DNA of 64,000 nt. Origin: Closterium sp. NIES-65 (Eukaryota > Streptophyta > Zygnematophyceae > Desmidiales > Closteriaceae). Every line of letters begins with the position of its first letter. The first letter of the stretch is position 1. The stretch lies in contig CANXME010001461.1 of assembly GCA_948144175.1 (NCBI GenBank), positions 1 through 64,000 on the forward strand. The letters run 5' to 3'. Under the pieces are notes generated by a model, which worked only from the letters and a program-made list of their open reading frames with translations, did no database searches and was not told the DNA's origin. A program made the position numbers and the translations under genes. This document shows positions 7,468 through 12,360 of this stretch, in pieces.

Positions 7468-7546
7468 AGCTTCCATCTTGGGTTCCTCTGCGAGCTCGTC
7501 CTTTCTGCTTGTACTGTTCATTAGCGCGTACAATGTTATGCCGAAG
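7468..7546 (-). repeat. A-LTR scrap bridging A and B sequence (unit 2)
   Basis: This is the same 77-79 bp LTR piece as at 726-802, with the same neighbours. A-family frame sequence ends at ...GGEQQQG and the scrap begins; B gag-tail sequence starts at GTGGTGGCGAG. The A frame read through the scrap runs out of phase into B, so there is no in-frame fusion. Confidence 0.8.
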
Positions 7547-10804: not shown

Positions 10805-11104
10805 CCTTGCTTGTACTGTGATCTTTCTATACCTGCACTTGCCTGTTTACCTTTATATATGATCTTGCATGTGAACTGGCCTTCTGGCCTTGCTCTTGTG
10901 CTCAGATTGTGTAGTGACGTTGTGATCCACCCTGAGCTTGCTTTGCTTTGCTTGACTGGTCTTATGACCTCTTGTTCTCCCCCACTTGCTTATCATATAG
11001 CTTGTCTAGGCTATAGTGGGGTAGACACTATGGGGTACAGTTTCCTAGGGTTTCCTACTTGTACCCAACCTTGTGCTAGTTCATTCATTCCTCGTTTCTT
11101 CACA
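10805..11104 (+). repeat. B-family 3' untranslated region and LTR remnant (unit 2)
   Basis: The sequence aligns with B2 20877-21236. The segment holding the polypurine tract and the first 20-25 bases of the LTR is deleted near 10990. The LTR tail (TAGTGGGG, GGGTACA, CATTCATTCC) ends at about 11104, where the minus-strand gag fragment begins. Confidence 0.6.
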
Positions 11105-11390: not shown

Positions 11391-11697
11391 TTGGCAATTT
11401 ACAGGAAGATTTGCGACGAAAATAAATGAATTTAGGTGCTGGGCATCTTACTGTGAGTTGAGTCGACTGTACAAATAACGAGCGCTGATTCTGTAGGTCG
11501 CGTAATTCTCCTATGATTGAAATCCGCGTCCGATCTCAGCCGTTAAGAAGAAATTCGATCCGACATTCCAAATTCCAACTTTTTTGGGCGAAATTTTCAG
11601 GGCCATTGAGATTCGAATCGATCCGACGGTTGAAATTCCAACTTTTTCGCCACTGGACCTGATGAGTGATCGAAAACCGGTTGGAGGGGGACGTTAG
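11391..11697. other. Non-coding stretch with short repeats, left flank of the TRIM
   Basis: No supported gene. The first 50 bp belong to the leader of the gag fragment. From about 11445 the sequence is moderately AT-rich and contains two similar segments centred on ATTCCAACTTTTT (about 11572 and 11635), each preceded by a GATYCGA-type string. It is probably leader sequence of a decayed minus-strand element whose LTR lies at 12172-12360. Confidence 0.4.
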
Positions 11698-11835
11698 TGT
11701 CAGAATCCCAACCACTAGACCATTGGGATAAAAGGGCTTGTTGAGTAGCGGGTCAGTGCGCTTATAACCCCCCAGGCCAATTTGCCTGTAACCCTTTCCT
11801 AGGATCAATCGGGGATCACCAGTGGACCCCCGACA
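11698..11835 (-). repeat. TRIM 3' LTR (138 bp)
   Basis: Minus-strand 3' copy, TGTCGGGGG...TGACA, equal in length to the 5' copy. A TTTT run at 11730-11733 lies just upstream of its own A-box copy. Confidence 0.9.
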
Positions 11836-11871
11836 CCCCCCCGCACTGGGATGCCCGAAGTGCATACACCG

Positions 11872-11929
11872 GGATTCGAACCCGAGACCTTCGCTCTGAT
11901 ACCATGTCAGAATCCCAGCCACTAGACCA
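11872..11929 (-). promoter_or_regulatory. tRNA-like Pol III A box and B box across the TRIM LTR/primer-site joint
   Basis: TGGTCTAGTGG (11919-11929) fits the A-box consensus and GGTTCGAATCC (11872-11882) fits the B-box consensus. Their starts are 47 bases apart, within the range of tRNA genes. The B box sits in a CGGG/CCCG stem like a T arm. Function is inferred. Confidence 0.6.
11893..11904 (-). promoter_or_regulatory. TRIM primer-binding site (initiator tRNA-Met type)
   Basis: TGGTATCAGAGC on the minus strand, directly after the 5' LTR. It is complementary to the 3' end of plant initiator tRNA-Met. Confidence 0.88.
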
Positions 11930-12042
11930 CTGGGATAAAAGGGCTTGTTAAGTAGCGGGTCAGTGCGCCCATAACCACCCAGGCCAATATGCCTGTAACC
12001 CTTTCCTAGGATCAATCGGGGATCACCAGTGGACCTTCGACA
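11905..12042 (-). repeat. TRIM 5' LTR (138 bp)
   Basis: Minus-strand 5' copy, TGTCGAAGG...TGACA. It differs from the 3' copy by a few substitutions and no length change. It contains the A-box-like TGGTCTAGTGG 14 bases before its end. Confidence 0.9.
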
Positions 12043-12360
12043 GTTAGAGAATAGCGCGGAACTGTTTTACGAACCCAAAAATCGGCGCTTTCCGTCGTCG
12101 CCCCTGCGGTTTTAAAGGCTAGGTTTTAGCGGTCGAAAAACTTCGCGTCTGAACAGGCTCTGATTACCAAGTGTGAGGATCTAGGATCGAGCTCCGAAAA
12201 GAGAGTTTGAATTGAATGAATGATCACCTGGGTACAAAGCGAGGCTATATATAGGCTCGACACAAGGCCCCGTAACCAGGTGTTACGCAAAGGTTCCGCG
12301 GGTCGCGAAGCGTCCCGTAACTGCCTTTGTCACTCAGTGAGGTGCCTTAACACCAGCGAG
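12043..12360 (-). repeat. Decayed LTR end with a degenerate primer site
   Basis: On the minus strand, a TATATATAG box (about 12246-12254) is followed by CTTTGTAC, a TTCATTCAATTCAAAC leader-like run and a terminal CTCACA at about 12172. Next comes GGTAATCAGAGCC (12156-12168), one base longer than the iMet primer site. This is the usual order of R/U5, LTR end and primer site. The 5' part of the LTR is missing where B2 coding sequence begins, near 12361. The gene-free bases 12048-12155 are leader-like. Inference from motif order only. Confidence 0.45.

Follow-up and report, generated by a model that had tools for sequence, protein, structure and literature searches.

The question raised by this locus is whether one short repeat period can be at once the body of an LTR element and a transcription unit of RNA polymerase III (Pol III). 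In the window, by which we mean the whole analysed stretch of 64,000 nucleotides, a TRIM of 345 bp with a period of 207 lies on the minus strand at 11698-12042. The reading that we consider probable is that it represents a non-autonomous and probably Copia-dependent TRIM, whose type 2, tRNA-type Pol III promoter is split by the joint between the LTR and the primer-binding site (PBS).

The hallmarks of a TRIM named in the preliminary description, namely LTRs with TG/CA ends, an iMet PBS, a polypurine tract (PPT) and a GTTAG duplication, are all present. The two copies of the target-site duplication GTTAG were read in the window at 11693-11697 and 12043-12047. Between them, on the minus strand like all parts of the element given here, lie a 5' LTR (11905-12042) and a 3' LTR (11698-11835) of 138 bp each, which were delimited by their identity to each other (129 of 138 positions) and have the ends TGTCG...TGACA. 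The internal region (11836-11904) measures 69 bp, a length at which a protein of note is impossible. It opens, directly 3' of the 5' LTR, with the 12-mer TGGTATCAGAGC (11893-11904), which we take to be the primer-binding site for initiator Met tRNA and which occurs at 4 further places within the window, and it closes, directly 5' of the 3' LTR, with a G7 PPT (11836-11842). The A box TGGTCTAGTGG (11919-11929) is situated inside the 5' LTR and starts 25 bases ahead of the PBS, and the B box GGTTCGAATCC (11872-11882), the only one in the window at one mismatch or fewer, is situated in the internal region. It had been claimed that these boxes stand 47 bases apart across the 5' LTR/PBS joint and that the first TTTT downstream comes just ahead of the A box of the 3' LTR. 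Both were found as described, with 47 bases from start to start and the TTTT at 11730-11733, 11 bases ahead of the second A box (TGGTCTAGTGG, 11712-11722), which has no B box downstream of it.

Such short motifs call for an estimate of what chance would provide. Under strict patterns the window contains one A/B pair spaced 30-60 bases apart, and 0 of 100 first-order Markov simulations contain any; when the B-box pattern is loosened, the single observed pair compares with a null mean of 0.46 and is not significant. At one mismatch or fewer, at least one B box was present in 60 of 100 shuffles and at least two A boxes in 45 of 100, these being the numbers observed; single A or B boxes are thus not rare by chance. 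The strong evidence is the genome-wide family, for which each pattern gave 0 places with its reversed control.

A tRNA gene at the element was ruled out, since none is called there by ARAGORN or Rfam: ARAGORN reported no tRNA and Rfam no match at the gathering threshold across the window, and the weak Rfam matches at the element belong only to the tmRNA clan (7.5 bits, E 3.8). As far as its letters indicate, the element bears a promoter-like resemblance and is not a tRNA gene. 5S rRNA is absent from the weak Rfam matches at the element, and the 5S-derived LTR sequence that marks Cassandra was not found. The lack of a tRNA call by either program agrees with the reading of the element as an ordinary Pol II-type TRIM, whose LTR end and leader are kept for integration and priming and resemble A and B boxes by coincidence or as a defunct remnant. 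The functional constraint under which U5, PBS and leader stand in every LTR element also speaks for this reading, which, in the light of the copies described below, we regard as rather unlikely.

The assembly searched comprises 874 Mb in 2,400 contigs, and reversed patterns served as controls. The pattern PBS-N(2-22)-GGTTCGAATCC was found at 2,124 exact places, the exact TTTT/A-box pattern TTTTATCCCAATGGTCTAGTGG at 7,477 and the 37-base joint of A box, LTR end and PBS at 2,112, with 0 for the reversed control in each case. The TRIM family is large, with thousands of copies in the genome. In viral_contigs and genome_contigs, neither of which is a collection intended for eukaryotes, the pattern A box-N(8-22)-PBS had no match (0 in each). 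The window copy itself recurs at two loci (L001 on C1862 and L003 on C263) with adjoining flanks that are alike over the length printed, which looks like duplicated assembly or haplotypes, or a segmental duplication.

Copies were studied in two samples. The first consists of 73 distinct places, from 100 listed of the 2,124, and was chosen on exact PBS and B box. Since an exact B box was a condition of entry to the first sample, this box was sampled again through the A box: 58 places were chosen on exact TTTT and A box, 26 of which then have a PBS at two mismatches or fewer. Each box was thus assessed where the other had served for selection. Successive filters on the 73 places left 56 for the LTR, 53 for the PPT and 49 for length, the last being the set used for divergence. 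A separate filter, which also left 49, asked for a clean direct repeat, 130-150 bp long, with its end at the PBS, and underlies the counts of duplications, TATA motifs and LTR identity; 41 copies of this second set of 49 were scored for CAA. The interiors of the 73 places are of two main kinds, 66-69 bp and about 93 bp. Tandem arrays occur in the family (L048, L069 and L071 are examples) and, in the available text of two papers, are known for other TRIMs (PMC4717578, PMC7215508). Perfect 5-bp duplications flank 41 of the 49 full copies with clean LTRs, and the median LTR identity of the 49 is 0.978, with 16 at 0.99 or above; the family is therefore a TRIM with recent insertions. Absence of coding capacity, two LTRs, a PBS, a PPT and short duplications of fixed length, the traits that define a TRIM, were all found.

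These copies also bear on the SINE architecture proposed in the preliminary description. tRNA-derived SINEs (SINE2) share with the present family the A and B boxes and a Pol III unit of about 200 nt. They are LINE-dependent and differ in being without LTRs, PBS and PPT, and no such unit was present in the loci read. A tRNA-derived SINE with tandem copies that resemble a TRIM by accident would account for a predicted Pol III unit equal to one period; against it stand the PBS and PPT, the arrangement LTR-internal-LTR with its 5-bp duplications, and the sequence ahead of the A box. Among 190 A-box sites pooled from the fetched loci of both samples, U3 lies directly upstream in 182, and inspection showed U3 with a small insertion at 6 more, which brings the count to 188 of 190; at the remaining loci (L012 and L044) most of U3 is missing. 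The copies have the LTR-internal-LTR form of a TRIM, and no free monomer was seen in the loci read. On the duplications and on U3 upstream of the sampled A boxes, the SINE reading was rejected for the loci read, and we find it hardly credible.

The preliminary description had allowed that boxes without conservation, or a spacing that drifts freely, would make the Pol III resemblance accidental. In the first sample the A box is present, with at most two mismatches, at 58 of the 73 places, and its distance to the B box is 47 in 33 copies, 44 in 24 and 46 in 1, so that 57 of 58 have one of two spacings. Of these 58 copies, 55 have TTTT 11 bases ahead of the A box and 3 do not. Downstream of the 5' A box, the first TTTT comes 11 bases ahead of the next A box in 49 copies; in the other 9 it is elsewhere or missing. 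In the A-anchored sample GGTTCRANNCC fits at all nine fixed positions in 16 of 26 copies and at eight or nine in 24 of 26; the spacing in the 24 copies with two mismatches or fewer is 44 (16), 47 (6), 45 (1) and 48 (1). One of the two failures (L093) is a chimaera with a different leader 3' of the LTR. The window copy and 24 of the 26 A-anchored copies agree in having the A box within the LTR and the B box 3' of the PBS. Of the 41 LTRs scored, 34 have CAA 18 bases ahead of the A box and 7 do not; for plants, CAA triplets just 5' of tRNA genes have been reported to act as start sites (PMC11700998). The spacing and the phase of TTTT bear out the earlier claim that the boxes form what appears to be a conserved tRNA-type Pol III unit over one period.

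For an ordinary Pol II-type TRIM with an incidental likeness, it is awkward that both boxes fit their consensus, mostly 44 or 47 apart, and that TTTT recurs at one phase. It is also awkward that TATA[AT]A and AATAAA are missing from all 49 LTR pairs (0 of 49 5' LTRs and 0 of 49 3' LTRs; TATAA was seen in one 3' LTR). The divergence between two subfamilies, A and B, could be measured at 49 of the 73 places. Between subfamilies (within A and within B in brackets) it amounts to 31.2% for the spacer (13.7, 2.0), 18.5% for the other interior (7.0, 3.0) and 13.5% for U3 (7.6, 5.9), in all of which the value between subfamilies is clearly greater than that within them. The corresponding values are 4.4% for R (6.1, 2.9), 5.4% for TTTT (0, 10.7), 2.1% for the A box (4.1, 0) and 3.8% for the rest of U5 (5.0, 2.0). 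From R through TTTT, ATCCCAA and the A box to the remaining U5, the divergence of 2.1-5.4% between subfamilies is thus about the mean of the values within them. The conservation of U5, PBS and leader is not specific to a promoter, because these parts are needed for reverse transcription anyway; yet the A box, which lies outside the LTR tip and the PBS, is as little diverged as stated. Among the points that count against a Pol III unit are the copies in which TTTT is elsewhere or missing, the LTRs without CAA at -18, the divergence of TTTT within subfamily B and the lack of a tRNA-like fold of note in Rfam.

The B box invites an explanation of its own. As CGGG-TTCGAAT-CCCG it may form a leader hairpin with a palindromic loop, serving RNA dimerisation or packaging by the Copia partner; it sits 8-11 nt past the PBS, and by eye three leaders that follow PBS-like sequences (in L008, L014 and L032) have inverted repeats of the type GGTCC..GGACC in the same place. 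However, another form of the B-box consensus, GGTTCGATTCC, which occurs in 5 of the 26 A-anchored copies, breaks the 6-nt palindrome and keeps the consensus, and a hairpin leaves the A box and the phased TTTT unexplained. We consider it improbable that the hairpin is the whole explanation, and a hairpin role and a promoter role could coexist in one sequence.

An LTR retrotransposon requires the same R at both ends of its RNA. Under the preferred reading of a Pol III promoter split by the LTR/PBS joint, the anatomy suggests how this need may be served, and it is from this anatomy that we infer Pol III transcription, its start site and terminator, and R; the partner is suggested by the chimaeras described below. 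With the A box in U5, the B box just internal and the iMet PBS where a tRNA has its anticodon arm, TFIIIC would contact both boxes at the joint of the 5' LTR and the internal region. Pol III would start at or near CAA, 18 bases ahead of the A box, so that the predicted RNA 5' ends fall inside AACAAGCCC. The transcript would run through U5, PBS, interior, PPT and U3 and stop at the same-phase TTTT of the 3' LTR. For the window copy the predicted RNA is 217 nt long with AAGCCCTTTT at both termini, a redundancy of 10 nt (AAGCCC-UUUU). The proposed R of the 5' LTR (AAGCCCTTTT, 11937-11946) is placed by the predicted start at CAA, and that of the 3' LTR (11730-11739) includes TTTT 11730-11733 as predicted terminator. 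The RNA would have the form R-U5-PBS-interior-PPT-U3-R, in which the 10-nt R serves first-strand transfer; an R of this length would be short. Copia proteins would package the RNA, iMet tRNA would prime, and integration would produce the 5-bp duplications. Because promoter and start both sit in R-U5-leader, they would be copied in every round, and a promoter that is transcribed is thereby inherited. A solo LTR or a lone 3' LTR would hold the A box only and is expected to be silent. The strict form of this proposal, with the promoter solely across the 5' LTR/PBS joint, a transcription unit that is both genomic RNA and repeat period, an R whose length of about 10 nt follows from where Pol III starts and where TTTT stops it, and silent solo LTRs, is one that we favour by a narrow degree over its being wrong in some part. 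If true, start and stop signals overlap within about 10 bases at one phase of both LTRs, which would be a concrete answer to the need for R.

The probable dependence on Copia is suggested by the copies in which the A box is missing (15 of the 73 places of the first sample). In at least two of these 15 (L055 and L066) the LTR matches apart from a deletion of one base. The motif of a different LTR lies directly 5' of the TRIM PBS in 8 of the 15 copies without an A box against 0 of the 58 with one, a count based on the LTR motif; the second PBS of L014 and L032 carries one-base deletions. In the chimaeric loci (L014, L032, L037, L051, L093 and L015) the TRIM interior or LTR is joined to a different, Copia-type LTR or leader at the shared iMet PBS. 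Along one strand L014 has a different LTR, PBS, TRIM interior, TRIM LTR, PBS-like sequence, leader and, last of all, a Copia gag frame (PF14223; the match, at E 1.9e-5, falls short of Pfam's cut-off), the one case in which coding sequence is tied to a chimaera. A reverse transcriptase frame at L010 was not counted for the partner because it lies on the strand opposite to the TRIM there. In L015 the TRIM U3 is combined with a different LTR end, like the Copia-side LTR of the window, in both LTRs and with a TAGCT duplication; the chimaera itself was therefore inserted. Within the window, the motif of the Copia-side LTR is found at two positions, 4260 and 11014; the copy at 11014 is some 600 bp away from the TRIM and follows a frame that has Copia-type integrase domains. 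This 3' part of an LTR of the type fused to the TRIM elsewhere (11003-11104 on the plus strand, start approximate) marks a candidate partner lineage. The chimaeras are read most simply as pointing, through their Copia-type LTR, to a Copia partner; they could also have arisen by recombination at the shared 12-bp PBS instead of co-packaging, and they are a natural record of strand transfer or recombination. The window (1-64000) as a whole is largely retrotransposon sequence, with LTR-like repeated stretches of about 960 bp and long inverted copies. As a single case, the copy at L012 (minus strand, about 1225) starts at AAAACAAGCCC, adjoining the predicted Pol III start; it abuts an apparent inverted LTR end and could be cDNA without first-strand transfer.

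The general idea that a TRIM may have a tRNA-type promoter has been published before (PMC10886601). In the part of that account available, Kojima (2024) applies the name Helenus to TRIMs whose LTR contains tRNA-like sequence, among them one plant family, Helenus-1_SMo of Selaginella (LTR 120, interior 85, 5-bp duplications), and suggests the term TRIMp3 for those TRIMs that have a Pol III promoter, of which Cassandra is the validated case (PMC10886601). The present family resembles Helenus in its tRNA-type A and B boxes, PBS, PPT and 5-bp duplications, in a size of 345 bp against 311-1263 bp, and in a likely Copia dependence such as is proposed for fungal Helenus; to judge from these features, it would work like Helenus. 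It differs in that the tRNA-like part of Helenus, as there described, is inside the LTR, whereas here conserved A and B boxes were found without tRNA-derived sequence confined to the LTR. Since the A box is in the LTR but the B box is internal, the LTR alone is an incomplete promoter; and since a B box outside the LTR goes against the definition of Helenus, we did not file the family there. A Pol III promoter sequence, which characterises TRIMp3, is present at the level of sequence. Cassandra is likewise a TRIM with a Pol III promoter, a TGGTATCAGAGC primer site and tandem arrays (PMC7215508, PMC10853983); in the available texts its promoter is of the 5S type and inside the LTR, and its Pol III transcription is reported (PMC12786077), whereas that of the present family is predicted. 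SMART/FRetro129, a 292-bp LTR element of grasses, also has 5-bp duplications and a Copia partner with unrelated LTRs; it differs in a reported TATAAAA in the LTR, and neither 'tRNA' nor 'polymerase' occurs in the available text (PMC3281118). In the open-licence literature we found no further paper on TRIMp3 or Helenus, and a search there for boxes, PBS and LTR together returned two papers, by title on retrotransposons that target tRNA or Pol III genes.

The way in which a Pol III transcript comes to have R at both ends is not spelled out for Helenus or Cassandra in the available portions of the papers. With its thousands of copies, its two classes of spacing and its natural chimaeras, the present family is amenable to tests, and it bears on the acquisition of small-RNA promoters by TRIMs. 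As for the source of such a promoter, a tRNA-Glu origin of the A-box segment was rejected, the tRNA-Glu-like pattern having matched 0 places in the genome, and therefore only likeness to a tRNA-Gly-like A box is claimed. A tRNA-Gly-like pattern, which itself asked for part of the A-box match and whose tRNA identity is our reading, was found at 53 places in the genome with A-B distances of 42-50. Among the five strings shown, one has exactly TGGTCTAGTGGT like the TRIM and four have TAGTGTAGTGGT. With RF00005, 63 of 18,457 candidates in the genome were scored, all of them repeats of a few organellar-looking tRNAs. At one place (G000:C9:125451-125505) a few additional bases, which may be a short intron, apparently break up the anticodon region of a tRNA-Gly-like gene.
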